This document shows, in pieces, positions 30,751 through 42,200 of a stretch of DNA of 64,000 nt (positions within the stretch are counted from its first letter, which is position 1; each line of letters starts with the position of its first letter). The notes under the pieces were generated by a model. That model ran no database searches. It worked only from the letters and a program-made list of their open reading frames with translations, and was not told where the DNA came from. Location: positions 1 to 64,000 of the forward strand of contig NW_002476301.1 in NCBI RefSeq assembly GCF_000189635.1. The letters are read 5' to 3'. Made by a program: the position numbers and the translations under genes. The DNA is from Tetrahymena thermophila SB210. Taxonomy: Eukaryota; Ciliophora; Oligohymenophorea; Hymenostomatida; Tetrahymenidae.

Positions 30751-33612
30751 TCAAACTTAAATTTCTCCGTTGCTTAGAACATTCTGAGTATTAGATTTAG
30801 TTTAGTTATTTTAGATATTATCAGCGTTCTAATTATTGTTTTTGCTACTGTCTTTTTGCATGCTTTAAAGTTCTTACACAAGTTTATCATCTTAGTGCAT
30901 TGGACTTGCTCTATGGTGATGAGCAAATTATACCATATTTTATGCGGCTTTATATGCATCTACAACTGTAATAATACCATTTCTTAGATTCTAAAAGTGT
31001 ATTAAACTTTCTTTTCTTGTAACAGGATTTTCTCTATCATAATCGGTATCAAAATCTAAATGAACTTCTTTGTATGTCTTCTCTTCATCTGAGTCTCCAA
31101 GAGGGAATAAAAACTCGTTTATTTTATCCATAGGAATAATGACTACAACTATGCAGACAGCAATAAATAAAAAGAAATTTCCAACATCAATGTAATAGCT
31201 CATAAACCATTTGAAAAAAACTTATCCAAATGTATGGAAAATGATAGAAAGTTCAACGAGTTCAATCATTTACATTGAAAGTCTTGAAGATATAGATTCT
31301 TTTACAGTTCTTCTAAAAATAAGGTTGTATTTATCAGTGATATAGTAAGCAATCAAACCACCTAGAGAAATAACAGTTCCTATGGGTATGATTGGTGAAT
31401 AAAAGAAAGTGAACCACATAGTTTTCATAATATCGGCATATCTTTTACCTTGAGTGTAGCTAGGATGTTCCATTAATGAGTTAGCTTCTTATTAAGTTAA
31501 AGAACAGACTTTCTTCTTTATTTATCTATTTCTTTTAAAATCTTACCAAATTTTCCAAGGATCAATAATCCATGCTAATGCTGGAACAACGGCGTTTATG
31601 ATAAAAATCAAGAATTCATTGTATATCATACCTCCAGCTAGTGCGTAAATATTTTAGAAGAAAATAATTTCAACAAAGAATGTGATGAGAGCGGTATTGA
31701 AGAAAAGACCAATAGTTAACTTGTATGCAAAGGATACGTTTAGACTTGTCTTAGTAGCCCATTTTTCGTGATCACAAATCTTATGGATTATAAAAGGCAA
31801 GAAAAATTTATTCCAAATGACTATAATACTGGAAATAACAAATGATAAAACTGTGACAGAAGTTTTTTGAGATTAGAGATCATCGTAATGATGCTACTCT
31901 TCTTCAGTCATTTCTCTTCCTTCGCTTTCGATTGCAATATCATGCTCTTATTTCAAAATATGATCTATGGTATTACTTTAGAGATAAGATATAAGAGCTA
32001 TAACAACAAAAGATGCAAGTGTTAAAATCAACCATTTAAAAAATGCAATTGTTCTAACTTTAATTTTTTCTACTGTTTTTACATGGGCAAACTCCCAATC
32101 GACGTCATTTGGCTCAGGAGCTTCTGATATATATAAATATCTTCCATCTAAATAAAGCTAGTCTTTTTTTGAATGTTATGATTTACCATCTTTAAAGTAG
32201 TCTTTAAATCTTTTCCATCCATCTTATGGGTTTGATTTAATTGCTTTTTACTTTTCTTCTTCTCTTGAAAAACTTATAAATGCTGTTCCTACAAATCTTT
32301 TATTGTCAGCCTACATTTATATTTGCATTTAATGAACTTCTTCTTCCAACTTTTCTATTTGATGATCAATTTCTTAAATTTCTTTATTATTAGGATCAAA
32401 ACTTTAAATCTTATCAATTATTTTCTGTTTCTACTGTACCTTTTTTTTAATTTATGTTTCTATATGCTCGAGGTCTGTGATATCATAAACCAAATTTATT
32501 TTTTCTACTGTACCATATTACTCAAATATTTCCTTCAAGGTTTCTTTTATATTAGTTATATTCTAACTTATATTTTGAACCATAATTGTGTAATCAGAAG
32601 GTGTGCTGCAGGCAATATCAACATCTTATTCTATTTTTCTCTGGCTTCTTCTGAATAAAATATTCAGTAATAACTACACTATGACTGCTGCAATAGAAAA
32701 GTGAAAGTCGTAATTTGTTTCTCTGTACATTTTATCTAAAACATTAGCCATCGAAATCTTATTTAAATTTGTATCAGGACAAGGGATTAAAAAGTAGGCT
32801 TAATGATGATCATGGTTTTCTTCAATAGCAGCGAAGACTTCAACAGGGTCAGAATGGCAAAATTCACCTTGAATATTGTAGACTAGGTTTGGGATTCCTT
32901 AAATGCAAAATAGGAAAAAAAGCATAAGGCAGCAATATTTGATATAGTTAAAATACAGTGGGAAACCTGATCCCATAAAACCTAACTCCATAGTATCTAC
33001 ATTAAGACCTATTTCTTTCCTTTTTAACTCATAACCACAGCAGTCACAAACCTCTTACATTTTTTTCTCAGCTTATTAGCCATCTGGTGAGAGTACTTCT
33101 TCAGAATCTAATTCAGGTTTTGTTTCTCTAGATTAAGCATGCAACTTAGCTTTTTCCCAATCACAAGGAATTTTAAAAGGATCAAATCCTTCATGCTTAT
33201 GTCCACCAGCATGAAAATGAATGTTGCTCTTTTTTTTAGTTGATGCCCTATGTATATTGACATGAGGATTTTAAAGATGGTTGTTCCCATTCTTTAACTC
33301 CATACGACTATTTCTTTCATTTGTATTTGAGTCATTATCAATAATAACTTCAAAAACTTCCTTCGCCTAGTCTCTTTAAGAATTCATTGACCGATTTTCG
33401 TTGCTAACAATATCTTTTTTGTAAACTAAACTATATATTCCAGCGTTGTTTGCCTTAGGCTCATCTTGATTTTGAGATTACTTTATTTGAACTGAATTAC
33501 CAGAATCAAACATTATAAGATTTTCATCTTACTCTATATTTTTATGGTTAATATGAAATTAAACAAGAGCATTATTTTCAGAAATATGCTATGAAGCATT
33601 ATTGCTTCTCAT
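30751..33612 (-). CDS. OSCA/TMEM63 (CSC1-like) mechanosensitive channel homologue
   Basis: A single uninterrupted frame of 953 aa, ATG 33612 to TGA 30753-30751. The first 200 residues are a cytosolic Asn/His-rich tail with cysteine pair CDCCGYELKRKE near 190. Then comes ELGFMGSGFPLYF and a first hydrophobic helix (YIKYCCLMLFFLFCIQGI, near 210). The family's cytosolic RRM-like module is clear: SDYTIMVQNI near 325, RFVGTAFISF near 425 and APEPNDVDWEFAHV near 490. Multiple membrane helices follow (for example FKWLILTLASFVVIALI, VISSIIVIWNKFFL, MWFTFFYSPIIPIG, NFFLFIAVCIVVVII), with EHPSYTQGKRYADIM before helix MWFTFF. Family members are osmo- or stretch-gated cation channels. Unlike its neighbours it has no intron; a GTAAG at 31553 is coding, since read-through gives the conserved QQEANSLMEHP. 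Confidence 0.88.
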
Positions 33613-36286
33613 TTTTACGCTTTACCTCTTTTATTGTTAATATTAATTTAATTAATAAATATAAAAAAAATTATGTCTGAGTGATCTATTTGCTTTGAAT
33701 ATTAAATTAAAAAGTATGCAAATTAATAAATTTATATATATAATTAATAAACTTTTTTGTTTAAAAAGGACTACAAGCAAGCAAATCCTTTAAATTTTCA
33801 GAATAAATTAATTGGTCTATAAAATTTATAAATAAGTGTTGATTTATTTTTTTTTGCAATAGTGATGTGAAGTTAACTATGCAAATGATTGATTTACTCT
33901 AATGAATAATATTAGATTGTTAATAAAAAATTATGATTATTAATTTTTTTCAATCTATTTGAATGGAAAAAAATTTATTATAATAAAGCAAAGGATTCTG
34001 TTCAATTTATTCATTGCATTTTAAACCAAAGAGGTTTTTTTTTTTAAGCTTGAATTAATTAGTTCAGTTTTTATTGTTAATAAGATTATTATTGAAGCCA
34101 CATAAGGTAATCAATCATAATATTAAACAAAACTATTGGATATTTAATTTTGATAAAGTATTTTGATGAGATGACTCAGAAAATAACAAAGATAGAAAAT
34201 AACCTTCTTTAATGACATTTATATTTAAAAATATTCATCATTAAGCTTGTTACTTAGATGCAAAAATTAATAAATTAAAAATCTTAAAAAAGTGAATGTA
34301 CACTATTTGTGTTAGAATAGAATAAATACGTTTTAAAGTTATGTATTTTTGTTCTTAAAAATTGCTTTGAATGAGCTTTTAAATAAAAAAAATATTAATA
34401 TTTAATATCTTTAACTTTAAAATTATACAGCTGCAAATATATTAATATAACTATTCTAATGGCAGACTTAGTTTTGACATAACTTATAATAGCTTTTCAA
34501 TATAGAACATAGTATCCTGATTGAATTACTTTAGAGATAGAATAGCTTATTTTTTATTTGCTAATTTTCTAATAGAATTTAATAAATAATGTATGATGTC
34601 TATGAATTTTGAATATATTCTTTCCTTCCTTAAAATAATATGTAACAAATAAATATTTAGTTTGTTCTTCTTAAGGCAGAGTTATTTTTTCATAACAAAT
34701 TTTTAATATTTACTATCACTTTTGCAAGCTTAATTAAATATTTTCAAAACTAATAAAGCGATCAAGTATATATAAAAATTTGCACGATATCTTAAAAATT
34801 CATCTAAATACAAAATTTTTTTATTTTTGATAAAAAAAACTAAATTTTAAATAAATATTATCTCTTTTAATTTAGAAGTGTAAAGATTAATGAATATGAT
34901 AATTTATACTAGATTGTATAAAAAGACTTTTTCTAAAAATCTCAAACTAATTATTTGTTCCAAGTGATATTATTATTTTCTTACTATAATCTCAATTTAC
35001 TAGGTAAAAAATATAAATACGTATTTAATAAATTCGCTATAGCGGAAAGAAATTTTCTTAAAATTTTCAAAGGTTTTTTTTCAATTAGGAAAAATACAAT
35101 TTAAATAGTTTACTACTAATAAAAGAAATCAGTTTACAAATTATTTCATTTTTAATAAATATTTCTATAGCTATAAACACCTCTAATTTCTTCAAAATCA
35201 CAACTTAATTTCTAAGATTATAAATTTTATTTTTTCAACTTTATGTTTGTTCTCAAGCAAATATTTTAGATATCCATTTTTTTATAAAGTAGATAATTGT
35301 ACTGTCTCAATCTTTTCATAGTAATTAATGCGAAATTGTGTATTTTATATAATTTAGTACAGTGTAAATTAGTAATATAAATCAGCATAGATTTATTTAG
35401 ATTTAATTTTAAGTTCTAACTTTTTAGAAATTTTTTCAATAGTATTACTAGAAAAAAAGAAAATATTAAAAATATGTAATCTATATAATCAAATTATATT
35501 TGTAGAACACAGAAAAAAATTATAAGCTAGAAAATAAATTTATCGTTGGTTTGAAGAAATTCAGCTTATTTATTTCTTAATTTAGCTTACATTTTGTATT
35601 AAATATATTTAATATTGAAAAAAAAAAATTTAATTCCAATTTGCAAATAAATTGACATAAATTTATCAATTGCAATTTTATACTTCTTTTTTTAATAATA
35701 TTAGAAGCTAAAAAGTATTTATCTAATATTTATATTTTATGAGTAAAATTTTATTTGATGATTAGCAAACAAAAAAAAATAACTTATTTAATTATTATTA
35801 TTATCGAAATCTAAAAAAGGAAATATTTAGCAGAAAGAAATTATTAATAAATAAATATTTTCAAATACTTTGGCTTATAAAAATTATTATGTATAAATAA
35901 ATTGATTTAATCAAAAATTAATTTCTCATAAATTAATATAAAAACCTAACTTTGAATTTTTACATCAAATTACAAGTAGGAGATTATAATTTTTAAAAAT
36001 TTAACTTGTATTAATTATTTTCCTCAAAAATTTTATTAAAAAGTATATATTGATTGTAGTTAGATTAAATTTTTTTCCTTTTTTACCAGTTGAATTATTT
36101 TACTGTGTTAGAAATAATTTTAATTAAATAAATTATTTTTTTTAAATTTGTGATATTTTACATAAAAATATATTTTTGTAAAACAAAAATTTTAGTATTT
36201 AATCTCTCTTTTTTGTTTTAATCTTTCCAATTAATTTGATTCTACTTGTAGCAAAATCTTAATTTTATTAAAGACTGGACTAAAAA
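33613..36286. other. Long AT-rich intergenic region
   Basis: 2.7 kb upstream of the OSCA-like gene, running to the RNA gene promoter. Very AT-rich with homopolymers (for example the T run at 34037-34048). No coding or structured segment seen on either strand. Confidence 0.5.
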
Positions 36287-36294
36287 ACCCATAA
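36287..36294 (+). promoter_or_regulatory. Tetrahymena-type proximal sequence element (T-PSE)
   Basis: ACCCATAA matches the consensus AYCCATAA that, as I recall it, lies about 55 bases upstream of Tetrahymena snRNA and telomerase RNA genes. Its spacing puts the RNA start near 36345, exactly where the AT-rich flank gives way to a structured, GC-richer island. Confidence 0.7.
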
Positions 36295-36312
36295 ATAAAT
36301 TTAATTAAAAAC

Positions 36313-36326
36313 TTTATAGCTTATAA
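36313..36326 (+). promoter_or_regulatory. TATA-like element of the RNA gene
   Basis: TTTATAGCTTATAA about 25-30 bases before the inferred start. A PSE combined with a TATA element is the layout of external Pol III promoters. In a genome this AT-rich a TATA match alone means little; position is the argument. Confidence 0.5.
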
Positions 36327-36344
36327 TTTCTCAAAGGCTGATAT

Positions 36345-36603
36345 GATTAAGGATAACAGCCTATTATAGTAATTTGCTTCGGCAAACGAACGATAGTGCA
36401 AGCATCATAAGTATGCATAGCACTCTATATAGTGCATAACATGTAAAGATGCGATCCAATAACAAAGTAACTTAGGTTGAGGTTGAGCTTGCTCCCTCGC
36501 CCAAGAGTTAGCCAATCTATATTCCTGCGCCCTGAACATAACGGACCTAATGGACCTGTTGGTCTTGGGCTAAACCATAGGAAGGACATCAAAATTTCTT
36601 TTT
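36345..36603 (+). ncRNA. Putative Pol III structured RNA, about 259 nt, family unassigned
   Basis: About 260 bases of near-balanced composition stand out in DNA that is otherwise over 80% AT. No convincing protein frame crosses it. It contains several strong local pairings: TTTGC-TTCG-GCAAA, a UUCG-type tetraloop hairpin (36373-36386); GCACT-CTATAT-AGTGC (36420-36435); and a long-range 8-bp match GCCCAAGA (36499-36506) with TCTTGGGC (36563-36570). A T-PSE and TATA element sit upstream at the right distances and a T10 run follows. It is not telomerase RNA (no CAACCCCAA template) and lacks obvious U1-U6 or U3 box motifs. RNase P RNA, RNase MRP RNA and SRP RNA are the candidates I could not confirm or exclude. 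Ends are estimated from promoter spacing and the T run. Confidence 0.72.
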
Positions 36604-36608
36604 TTTTT
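36599..36608 (+). terminator. T-run Pol III terminator
   Basis: Ten consecutive Ts, preceded by TTTC, directly after the GC-richer island. Runs of four or more Ts on the non-template strand end Pol III transcription. Confidence 0.65.
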
Positions 36609-36941
36609 CTCTCAATTCTAAATAACTGAAAATAATATTACAAGTTAATAAAAAATAAATTTTAATTTGAGTCTATTATAAATAATTTTTAATTTAAAAA
36701 TTTACATGCACACGCATCAGTTTAATAAAGATAATTAGAAATATAAAATTTTGTTAATTAATTGATAATTTATTTATTAGATTATTATTATTTTTAATTA
36801 GTTATTAATATAGTATTAAAGCAAAATCATTTTCAATTTTAGATTCATATTAATTGATTTATAAATAATGTTATTTAGTTTAGGAAAATAAAAAGCAGAT
36901 CATTCTTTATTTTTTAATTTATAAATACATTTTTTGTTAGA
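36609..36941. other. Intergenic region after the RNA gene
   Basis: 333 bases of AT-rich DNA separating the RNA gene from the 3' end of the FYVE gene. Nothing recognisable. Confidence 0.55.
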
Positions 36942-38625
36942 TCAATTATAGTCATATCTATTTAAGCACATGTTCATTTTTTTCTCTTTTTTTGGAGCTA
37001 CATTATGGGTTTTAGGTTCAAAATCATCATACTATTCAGAATTTAATGTGTAACAACGTTTATTTTTAATATTTTATATTTATTCAAATTCTTATTATTC
37101 ATAAGTAGGACCTTTCAAGTCTGTGTTGAAGGTAGTGTTATCCCTTGTATCATATACTGACTAACTTCTATTGGAAGTATTATTTGTGAAGATATTAAAA
37201 TGATCATGGTTGTAGATTAAACTCGGATTTAAAGTTGATGAGCTTCTATCATCACGTTCGATTAATTTCTAATTTAAATTATGCTTTTATTAAAGTTCAT
37301 CTTATTTTTCATAGAGTCTATTTAACTTTTTTTGCTTTGTGTCAAGAGCTTGCAATTTCATTAAATTATCTTCTCTTTATCTTTTTAGCCTTTGTTCTAG
37401 CTAGTAAAGAAGCTTTTTCTTCTCCTCTAATTGTGATATCTTTGAATCAAGAATCCCTTTCATATTTTTTATGTCTTACTATTTTTATATTCTATCATAT
37501 AAAATGTCTCTCAGCTATTTTCCATGCTCAATTATTTAATCTTCTCGTTCTTTTTATGTTTGCTCAACCTTTTAAATAATAATAGAAAATAATTTAAATA
37601 TTTTTAAAAATAAACAACTAATTATTTTTTTATATTCACATCATGTAGATTTTTTGCTATATTTAGAAATGTGAATTTGTTGGTATTTGCTATTTTAAGT
37701 TTGAAAATTCTATAAAAATTACCTGCTATTGCATTTTCCATTATTTAGTTGACAAATACTCGCAATGATTAATCATATTCTCGTATTGAGAAATTAAAAT
37801 TTTATTTTATTCTTCAGCAAGCTTTTCATACTTTGAATAGAACTCAACATCTTTCCTAAATGTATTTAAATACGGATTATCATGGCCAGAGTTAGTTTTG
37901 ATTGCAATAGTAATAAAACATATATCACATGATCGATGGGAATTAATTCTTTTGGCTGAACAATGCTAGCAGCAAGACATGCTACAAAATCTACAATGAT
38001 GTACTCTTAACGAAAATAACCCAAATTTAGATTTGCAGACACAACATTCTGGGCCTTTCTAAAAATCATTTACATCAAACACTTTAATTTTATAATACTC
38101 AAGATTTACTGACAGCTTATCAGCTTTTTAATTGGAAGCAGAGTTTGCTATTAATGAGTTTGAATTATTGATCATACTTGATCCTAGTGATGAGTTAGAT
38201 ACTAATTCATTTGAGTCATCTTCTTAATTAATTACCTTAAATCCAACGTCACTCTTAGCCATCAGGTTGATATTAGTTAATCTCTATCTTCGCTATAGAG
38301 CATTAGGATCAACTAAAATTTCAGAAAAACCATCTTATAACTCATCAAGATCATCAGAATACTTGACTAATGGGTCTGAAAGTTTTCTATTTTACTAAAA
38401 ATGATTTTCAGTTATGAAATGCATATTATTATTTCTTTAATTTTTATTTTTTTTATCACCACTGCTTTCTGCTTGAGTTTATTACTAAAAATGGTCTTTC
38501 TTAACAAGACTTGAACTTAGATCAGTGACTTACTAAGTGGTATTGTCATCATCAAATACCAACTTAACTTCACAATCATCATTGTCCATATCAATGACCA
38601 TTTTGTTAGTTCTATTTTTTGACAT
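36942..38625 (-). CDS. FYVE-type zinc finger and coiled-coil protein
   Basis: Exons 38625-37723 and 37568-36942, 509 aa; the 154-base intron is GT-AG in phase 0. Residues 1-185 are acidic and Ser/Asn-rich. A FYVE-like finger lies near 190-245: ECCVC, then the diagnostic basic-His-His-Cys block RVHHCRFC, then CCQHCSAKR and CDIC. That provides eight Cys ligands. FYVE fingers bind phosphatidylinositol 3-phosphate on endosomes through the R-x-HHCR block. From residue 270 on, and throughout exon 2, long helices rich in Glu/Lys/Gln/Leu (QLEEKKKLLYQLEQRLKRQ) predict a coiled coil that could dimerise the finger. The last 100 residues are irregular. A role in endosomal or phagosomal traffic is inferred from the finger alone. 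A WxxD motif is not evident, so binding could be weakened. Confidence 0.85.
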
Positions 38626-39225
38626 TTCTTTAATGTCGCTTAATTTTTTAATAATTCTAATTTAAAAATAATCTTTTGAATATTAAAGGTGAGTTAAAAT
38701 CTATTCTTATTTATTGATTTTAATTATTAGATTTATTGATCAATTAATCACTATGATATTAGAAAAAGATTACTTTGTTTTGATTATAAACTGATTCAAT
38801 GTGATAAAAATAACATTTGTTAATAATAAAAGAAATGACTTAGATTTTATTTAAATATTCTGATGATAAATACAAGAATTTCAAGAGTAAATAAATAAAT
38901 AAGTATATTTAGTAATAATTTTTCATTATTCAATAAATAAACAGACATATTTATTTAGTAATAATATTTTAATAAAATAACTCTATGATAGATAGATATA
39001 AGGAGATTTACATGAGAAATTTATTTATTTTTAAAAATTTAATGTTTTTTATAAATGAAAATACGCTTCTAGCTGTACTAATAAACCATAACTTTAAATA
39101 ATAGTAACAAGTAAAAGCACAAATAATTTTTAGTAATTAACCAATACAAAAGTAGAAGAAAATTTTACAATTTAAATTTATTAAATAATAGAAGTGTAAA
39201 ACCGATTTAGTAAGTAGAAGAAGAA
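38626..39225. other. Divergent promoter region
   Basis: 600 bases between divergent starts at 38625 and 39226; AT-rich, with no defined element seen. Confidence 0.55.
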
Positions 39226-42200
39226 ATGAGACAAAATCTAATGATAAAAAAATTAGATACTCTATCCTTTTAGGGTGATACTTATGATAATATGACTCCA
39301 TACAGTAAATTATATTTGAAGAACGTAAATCTCATTCTCTTAAACTCTTTTCTTCCATTAGCATTAGTAATAAAACGATAAATAAAATAATAGGAAGATG
39401 AATTATTAATTAAAGCGTAGGAGATAGAATATAACGAAGAAGGAGCATTATTTGATTCTCAGCATCAAATGGGTATATTATTCCATTTTAAATTCATATA
39501 ATATAATGTAATTTAAATATTTTACAAAGTCAAAGAGCTCAATTTCGTGCCTTACTTTAAAATAGATTCTACCTTACGTTTTAACACTCAAAATATAGAA
39601 GAATAAACAAGAGAAAAGAAAATTACTTGGTAGGATTTATCTAAAAACATATTAGATACACAAGGATTGAGTATACTAAGTCCTGTAAATGATGAGAGAA
39701 AATTAAGCACTAGTTTTATGAATAAATCAGCTTTAAAAAAATTAAATCTAAGTTAAAGCTTAAGTGGAAGTGTTATTTCAAAGCAACGTAATTGATTAAC
39801 TATTTTTTAACTTTTGATAAATAAAATAAAACAAAATAAAATTTTTATTTATAAATTTAGAGTATATCAATAAATATTTTAAGGATTCATTTAGAGTAGC
39901 ATAGGCTGCTGCTATTGCTGCTGCTGGAAAACATAATAGTAAAAGTAAGACATCAAGTGCCAGAGATGTACTTAATTCATGTGCTGAAGAAAATACAGAT
40001 AATCTTTCAACTGAAAAGAATACCAAAGCACCAAGTTTTAGTATGAAATAATTTACACAATCATGTAATGAAAATATTTAAACATAATTTTATATATTAG
40101 GGAGAAAGAGTTTATCTAACAATTTTGTTTACTTTTCAAACGATATGGAGTAAAATCTTAGATAAAAAAACTAATTTTGGATATTTTCAGATGTTGAAGA
40201 AAATTTATAGAATGAGATCAATTCAAATAATTTTCCATAAAGTACAGATTCACAAAAAAGAAATAATAAAACAACAACAAAAACCTATGCATAAAGAAGA
40301 ATGAACTAAAATAGAGGCAATACATACATTAACTCTGGATTTACGCCAAAGAATTAGGCGAAAAAAGAAACAAAGATAATTGATAATATTAAAATGAGAC
40401 CTAAAAGCTGTTGTTGCAACAGATGCGGACCTGAATTGAATAAAAACAAAAAATTAATTTCACTTCCATTTAAAACAGCTATTTAGAATGCTGTTGAAAA
40501 CAGTAAATTAGGAATTAATACTGGTCTCAAATGTATTGCTTTTATTGGAAAGGTTAGAAGATCTAAATATATAGATAGCTTAATGTTTAATTAACTAAAT
40601 AGCTTATAAAATAATTTAGAAAACCCATAGATTTTGCAACCTGAAAATACCGAAGTTGCAAACTAACAAACCAATAAGTAAAAAAAAAATTCATATAGCT
40701 TACATAATCCTCTTTATCTTTCTTTACAAAATTATAATAATAATAATAACAACAATGGCAGCAATAGAAAACCATCACACCTTTCGTTAAACGAAAATGG
40801 ATAAGCTAATTAAAAGAGGCTATCTTATGTAAGTAAAGATCAAGAAGATTTATCTAATAGTGAAAAAAAAGAAAGATCATCAATATTAAAAGTCTCAAAT
40901 TTAGAAATTATTAATGTTGACTAAAATAATTAGAAAAAAGATCAAAAGTTAATTGAAGATTAACAATTTTAGGACTAATCTTAGATTGTAAAATAATTTA
41001 CTTTTTAGACTTAATCGAGCTAATCTGATTTTGAAAGTTAACAAAACTCGCAAGAAGATTATAGTGAACTTTCCTAACAAAAAATTAATTTTAGGCAATC
41101 TTAACTATTTTCTACATAGAAAAGCTTAAATAAAATAGTTAATAAAAAGCAAAAAGTTCAATAAATAATAAGTATGCATAAGTAAGCGAGTAGAGTAGGA
41201 TAGATTACTAAATTAGCATTAAAAAATGAAAACTCAGAAGGTAAAGATGGAGATTACTAAAGCTGTAAGAAAGCTGAATAAAATCAAAATGAATAAATAT
41301 AAACCGACAGAGTCGCTTATCATATATCTAGTACAAGCAAATAAGAAAGGTAAAAATAATTTTTAAACTTAATAAAATGCATTTTTGAAATATGAAAAAT
41401 TATATAAATAGAAATAATTACAAAACTCATACTAATTCGATATTTGAAGATAGGATCTCATAAAGGATTATTTCTAACACTAAGCTCCAACCGATATCAA
41501 AAATTAATATAGAGAACTAATATAAAATGTAAGATAGAAGTGCATCATTCAAATAAGGCAGTTTTAACAATAACTAAAATGCTGGAAAAGCATTAACTTA
41601 AAATGAATGTTATTATTCCCAATAATTATAAATTTCAAACAAATAACTTCACTAAATGGTATATTTACCTTTAAGAAGTTTTAAATAAAATGAAAGTTTA
41701 ACTGATCGTACTTCTTAATAAAAGTTAAAAAATTCAATAAGAGTTCAAACATTGATTTAAAATGAAAAGGAAATGGGCAATTTAACTGAAGATATAAAAT
41801 CATTTGAATCAATACATACCTAATTCTTAAATACTACTTCCGATTCCTTCAAAGAACCTAAACTCATATAATTTAAAAGAAGGATTCTAGATAAAGAGGA
41901 GTAAAAACTTGTATCAATGAGTTAGAGAAGTGATTATAAAATATATCTATAACAATAAGATAGTGAAAGACAGCATACATTTGCTCCTAAACTGACTACA
42001 TCTAAAGACTTTCTTTCAAGATTTGTTTAATAAAAAAAAAATTAAAACTCTTTGTACTTTAGTAAATAATACTAAAATAAGAAGTTTAATAAACTGAATA
42101 AAGCATAGATAATTGATTTAAATGATGAAAAATCATAATTGAAAATTTATTAAAATATTGATCATAAAATAATAAATGTAAATAGAAGTGATGACAGATA

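Follow-up and report, generated by a model that had tools for sequence, protein, structure and literature searches.

The window analysed here comprises 64,000 nucleotides of Tetrahymena thermophila SB210 (contig NW_002476301.1, positions 1 to 64,000, forward strand). It opens with CCCCAA telomere repeats (positions 1-278), which mark it as a macronuclear chromosome end from a Tetrahymena-like ciliate; the whole contig measures 520,943 bases. An earlier note, made from the letters of the sequence, had described a GC-richer island of roughly 260 bases in AT-rich DNA (36287-36608) and had read it as an unassigned Pol III RNA gene with PSE and TATA elements upstream, hairpins and a T10 stop. Composition confirmed the island. 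The segment 36349-36591 has a GC content of 42.4%, compared with flanks of 1 kb at 15.7% and 21.5%, and the richest 243-nt window outside the island between 35000 and 37600 reached 29%. That the island is a structured RNA gene standing by itself, preceded by a promoter of the snRNA type and followed by a T run, was likewise supported by the features collected in Table 1. A minus-strand open reading frame of 260 amino acids (ciliate code; 35861-36643) spans the island. It was set aside as likely chance, because TGA is the sole stop codon and long chance reading frames are therefore frequent here; 33 reading frames of at least 100 amino acids overlap 33000-40000.

According to the earlier note, the island fitted none of the RNAs whose motifs could be checked by eye, and RNase P, MRP, SRP, U3, vault and telomerase RNA were named as candidates. 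In Rfam, none of these six reached its gathering score anywhere in the window, and none was matched between 36200 and 36700 when hits up to E = 10 were admitted. Telomerase RNA, U3 and SRP RNA were matched at other loci of the genome. The 3' half of the island, in turn, is covered by the family RF02314 (TtnuHACA7), which is the only Rfam match of the window at gathering scores and was found once across the 101-Mb assembly. Beyond it, the search of 36200-36700 up to E = 10 returned only one chance-level match. As Rfam also includes models of the vertebrate and the yeast U17/snR30 RNAs, this result counts against the assignment made below.

U17/snR30 RNAs carry two conserved and critical motifs, m1 (AUAUUCCUA) and m2 (AAACCAU) (PMC7601244, cited throughout from its accessible text). 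In the island, where the earlier note had overlooked both, m1 (ATATTCCTG, for the expected AUAUUCCUN) lies on the 5' side of the pocket of the 3' hairpin and m2 on its 3' side. For the U17 RNA of T. thermophila, Table 1 of the accessible text lists a length of about 240 nt, m1 AUAUUCCUG and m2 AAACCAU (PMC7601244); the m1 of the window agrees with this entry to the last letter, including the final G. To estimate how often such motifs occur together, the whole assembly was searched. The pattern ATATTCCTN-N25..55-AAACCAT gave 28 matches and the reversed control 18, so that the pair alone is close to background. Addition of the ACA box (ATATTCCTN-N25..55-AAACCAT-N5..9-ACA) left 2 matches in 101 Mb and none in the reversed control. 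The second of these has an AT-rich interior, whereas the match in the window encloses a GC-rich GCCC/GGGC stem. Given the separate Rfam match, a coincidental occurrence of the m1-m2-ACA pattern is very unlikely.

Based on the m1/m2/H/ACA anatomy together with the RF02314 match, we assign the island to the U17/snR30 H/ACA snoRNA gene of Tetrahymena, present as a single copy found in the assembly, with a probability of roughly 95%. The Tetrahymena U17/snR30 is an RNA already known; its earlier identification is mentioned, with reference to Atzorn et al. 2004, in the accessible part of PMC6315972. Thus, the two possibilities left by the earlier note part ways. The reading as a core RNA already known, in a form that has diverged in ciliates, proved to be right, and the assessment as an unassigned or new RNA did not hold. 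A novel structured Pol III RNA, unrelated to U17 and carrying m1 and m2 by chance, would account for the lack of any Rfam model over the 5' half. We give it almost no credence and rejected it, as exact m1 and m2 motifs, the correct ACA spacing, the RF02314 match and a motif pattern occurring only twice in 101 Mb all speak against it.

Table 1. Features of the U17/snR30 locus on the plus strand of the window.
Feature	Position	Strand	Basis and remarks
PSE/USE-like element AACCCATAAA	36286..36295	+	resembles the element upstream of the U6, telomerase RNA and SRP RNA genes of the same genome
TATA-like stretch TTTATAGCTTATAA	36313..36326	+	halves 25 and 33 nt past the PSE
U17/snR30 H/ACA snoRNA, about 242 nt, inferred	36350..36591	+	start from U6 spacing; end = ACA + 3 nt
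5' domain	36351..36458	+	MFE and centroid fold; two sub-hairpins closed by GGAU/AUCC, adjoining the H box
Candidate H box ATAACA (ANANNA)	36459..36464	+	direct reading
Rfam RF02314 (TtnuHACA7) match	36463..36591	+	cmscan, 154.8 bits, gathering 100, all 130 model nt
Internal hairpin, between H box and 3' hairpin	36470..36513	+	fold; hairpin also in the RF02314 consensus structure
3' H/ACA hairpin	36512..36585	+	hand-drawn; constrained fold of 36513-36588
Basal stem of 3' hairpin	36512-36520/36577-36585	+	hand-drawn; two A-A mismatches
m1 motif ATATTCCTG	36519..36527	+	same as T. thermophila U17 m1 (PMC7601244 Table 1, accessible text)
Distal stem-loop of 3' hairpin, above the pocket	36529-36570	+	constrained fold
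m2 motif AAACCAT	36572..36578	+	same as T. thermophila U17 m2 (PMC7601244 Table 1, accessible text)
ACA box	36586..36588	+	15 nt past the distal stem
T10, likely Pol III terminator	36599..36608	+	8 nt past the inferred RNA end

The predicted arrangement of these elements corresponds to that of U17, an H/ACA RNA with an additional internal hairpin. H/ACA RNAs place the ACA box 14-16 nt from the top of the pocket (PMC7601244), and the spacing of 15 nt falls inside this range. The candidate H box agrees with the ANANNA consensus, which is weak evidence alone, as ATAACA also occurs at 36353 and 36436. Predicted folds of this one Tetrahymena genome are consistent with the layout of internal hairpin and 5' domain, at energies near those of shuffled sequences: 17 of 200 shuffles were at least as stable as the fold of 36350-36465, and 134 of 500 equalled the internal hairpin. 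For the 3' hairpin, the unconstrained fold favours a different basal pairing. Contrary to the U17 fold, most of m2 is paired to bases within 36471-36478 in the consensus structure of RF02314. As both of these structures pair m2 differently, the base-pairing details modelled at the base of the 3' hairpin are unproven.

Strong hairpins had been a main point of the earlier description. Hairpins are indeed present, and three single ones, chosen post hoc, beat most shuffles (1 to 21 of 500 were as good). The overall folding energy is ordinary, with a z score of -0.88 for the whole island (38 of 200 shuffles at least as stable) and 263 of 500 shuffles folding at least as well as the Rfam-covered part. 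Thermodynamic stability was therefore dropped as evidence, the energies being close to those of shuffles. The UUCG hairpin TTTGCTTCGGCAAA was found at 36373-36386. A second perfect hairpin, GCACT/AGTGC, lies at 36420-36435; that this is the one previously meant is a guess. The 8-bp long-range pairing GCCCAAGA/TCTTGGGC (36499-36506 with 36563-36570) exists in the letters. Its formation is not required. It takes up the GGGC at 36567-36570, on which the distal stem in the 3' hairpin of U17 depends, and the two are thus in competition.

The start of the RNA was deduced from other genes of the same genome. When the spacing of the U6 genes is applied from position 36288, the first C of the upstream element, transcription would start at 36350 (range 36346-36352). 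The distance to the third nucleotide behind ACA (36591) is then about 242 nt (240-246), compared with a gel estimate of about 240 nt for T. thermophila U17 (PMC7601244). The spacing of 73 nt seen at SRP RNA genes would place the start at 36361; it was excluded from the estimate because the SRP match probably starts inside its RNA. Since a start near 36350 falls within the AGGCTG/CAGCCT hairpin (36335-36362), this hairpin was not counted as part of the RNA. The mature 3' end is probably generated by trimming to the third nucleotide behind ACA.

The extent of the RNA also bears on whether its 5' half belongs to it. In principle, only the 3' half could be an RNA, namely an ordinary two-hairpin pseudouridylation guide, with the 5' half being spacer or a second gene; the Rfam model of 130 nt beginning at 36463 and its name TtnuHACA7 would agree with this. 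Several observations make such an arrangement highly improbable. Position 36463 falls within the H box candidate, and the only ACCCATAAA of the window, at 36287, is too distant to serve a start there. The 5' half is GC-enriched as well (40-nt windows between 36340 and 36440 give 0.28-0.43). Moreover, m1 together with m2 marks U17 and not modification guides, and a U17 RNA of about 240 nt, as published, requires the 5' half (PMC7601244). Two separate genes within the island were likewise disfavoured, given the lack of a second ACCCATAAA and the agreement in length. With a single U17/snR30 RNA, TtnuHACA7 is the 3' part of U17. The Rfam family, which begins inside the H box, should probably be lengthened and given a different structure.

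Upstream of the RNA, the previously noted snRNA-type PSE and TATA element were both recovered (36286-36295; TTTATAG at 36313 and TTATAA at 36321). The sequence ACCCATAAA occurs once in the window, with 0.67 occurrences expected; as 49 of 100 shuffles contained it at least once, the single occurrence is not above chance by itself. In a looser scan over 15 letters with up to three mismatches, 50 matches were obtained and 19.6 expected. Many of them were ATAAATAAAT-like runs, and the exact form was found only at the island. The T10 run had also been located correctly. On the plus strand of the window, such a run begins within 40 nt downstream for 0.6% of positions. TTTT is missing between 36350 and 36598, and the Pol II-type 3' box AATYAAAC was not found in 36581-36660.

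To relate this promoter to those of other RNA genes, loci of the same genome were compared: telomerase RNA (1 of 1), U6 (4 of 4), U2 (8 of 9), U3 (4 of 4) and SRP RNA (3 of 3), as well as the H/ACA matches of TtnuHACA6 (1 of 1) and TtnuHACA8 (2 of 2). Upstream of all four U6 genes, the telomerase RNA gene and two of the three SRP RNA genes we found ACCCATAA; the third SRP RNA gene has ACCCATCA, and ACCCAT is common to all eight. The eight typical U2 (4) and U3 (4) genes carry AACCATAA instead. This element is also present at approximately -91 of TtnuHACA6 and -43 of one TtnuHACA8 copy, and it is lacking at the other copy. Four U2-variant loci share ACCCATAAAA. These variants form a cluster (C329, 205-208 kb) and score about 102-104 bits versus 146-150 for typical U2; they combine an element resembling that of U6 with, in three of the four genes, a 3' box like those of Pol II genes, a mixed promoter.

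The loci also differ in spacing and in their 3' regions. TATA-like stretches are positioned 32-33 nt past the PSE in all U6 genes and in one of three SRP RNA genes, versus 24-26 nt in all typical U2 and U3 genes (4 of 4 each); the U2 variants and the telomerase RNA gene yielded none by the same scan. Measured from its first C, the element precedes the Rfam start by 62 nt in three U6 genes, 64 nt in the fourth and 58 nt in the telomerase RNA gene. For SRP RNA, the distance from the element to the start of the Rfam match is 73 nt in two genes and 84 nt in the third. Downstream, the AATYAAAC box accompanies 11 of 12 U2/U3 loci, none of the eight U6, telomerase RNA and SRP RNA genes, and none of the three H/ACA loci. 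U6 and telomerase RNA genes have a T run directly behind the RNA, and T10 is placed in the same way here. By itself, such a run has no diagnostic value, since seven of eight U2 loci have one of 6-9 residues about 27-37 nt downstream.

Taken together, the promoter and T10 of the island resemble those of U6 and telomerase RNA genes more closely than those of U2 and U3. Therefore, judged from sequence comparison, the Tetrahymena U17/snR30 is probably a Pol III transcript from a promoter of the U6/telomerase RNA type. The U6-like PSE, the TATA distances, the T run and the absence of a 3' box are all found, each being a feature not exclusive to Pol III genes. This reading is weakened by the TATA-like stretches of U2 and U3 genes and by the missing 3' box of the other H/ACA loci.

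A less probable, though serious, alternative is that U17 is transcribed by Pol II from an upstream element shared by snRNA and snoRNA genes, as is yeast snR30, with T10 being incidental. Box C/D snoRNAs of Tetrahymena do have a USE like that of snRNA and snoRNA genes (PMC6315972, accessible part), and in yeast, snR30 is made by Pol II and bears a trimethylguanosine cap (PMC7601244). In the same direction point the ACCCATAAAA element common to the four U2-variant loci, the position of TTTATAG 25 nt past the PSE, which equals the U2/U3 spacing, and the ten runs of at least ten T residues on the plus strand of the window. On the other hand, AATYAAAC is lacking behind the island, T10 is placed as in U6 and telomerase RNA genes, ACCCAT is the form found at Pol III genes, and TTATAA lies at a U6-like distance; these observations favour Pol III. 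The choice between ACCCAT and AACCATAA and the spacing of PSE and TATA may help to select the polymerase. In land plants, it is the PSE-TATA spacing that decides (PMC9841428, accessible part). Among the titles listed by a literature search, mostly outside subscription journals, none concerned U17 as a product of Pol III, a weak indication that no such paper exists; the name TtnuHACA gave no paper. The word U17 is absent from the accessible part of PMC9705548.

The expected function follows from the U17 literature. U17/snR30 binds H/ACA proteins, and its m1 and m2 pair with the rRNA elements rm1 and rm2, which lie within expansion segment 6 of the 18S molecule; it is required for the A0, A1 and A2 cleavages and does not guide pseudouridylation (PMC7601244). 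In the proposed model, the Tetrahymena gene would be transcribed by Pol III from its U6-type PSE and TATA promoter, transcription would stop at T10 and the transcript would be trimmed to the third nucleotide behind ACA. The resulting RNA of about 242 nt would bind two sets of H/ACA proteins, at the H and ACA boxes, and aid the folding and assembly needed for cleavage of small-subunit rRNA without pseudouridylating it. The rDNA itself seems to be absent from the assembly, as a search for 5.8S gave no match in it at E 0.001.

Human U17 and yeast snR30 possess m1, m2, H and ACA boxes as well as a 5' domain and an internal hairpin such as are predicted here, and the human RNA, with two 5' stems, a small internal hairpin and a conserved 3' hairpin, has the layout predicted for the island (PMC7601244). 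Gene organization differs. Vertebrate U17, including the human RNA, is intronic and yeast snR30 has a Pol II gene of its own (PMC7601244), whereas the gene described here combines a promoter resembling that of U6 with a T run. The T. thermophila accession AJ544686, to which the gel estimate of the length belongs, has the same m1 and m2 and is partial (PMC7601244 Table 1). RF02314 does not bear the name U17 and leaves out the 5' domain and the greater part of the H box. Compared with this partial accession and a family restricted to the 3' half, the locus provides a full-length gene model that includes the promoter and the T run, and it links TtnuHACA7 to U17.

In summary, the island is settled as a known ribosome-biogenesis RNA that is found across eukaryotes and serves the small ribosomal subunit. 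Its promoter suggests Pol III-type transcription of U17 in a ciliate. If this holds true, processing of small-subunit rRNA in Tetrahymena would be tied to the output of Pol III, unlike in yeast and vertebrates.
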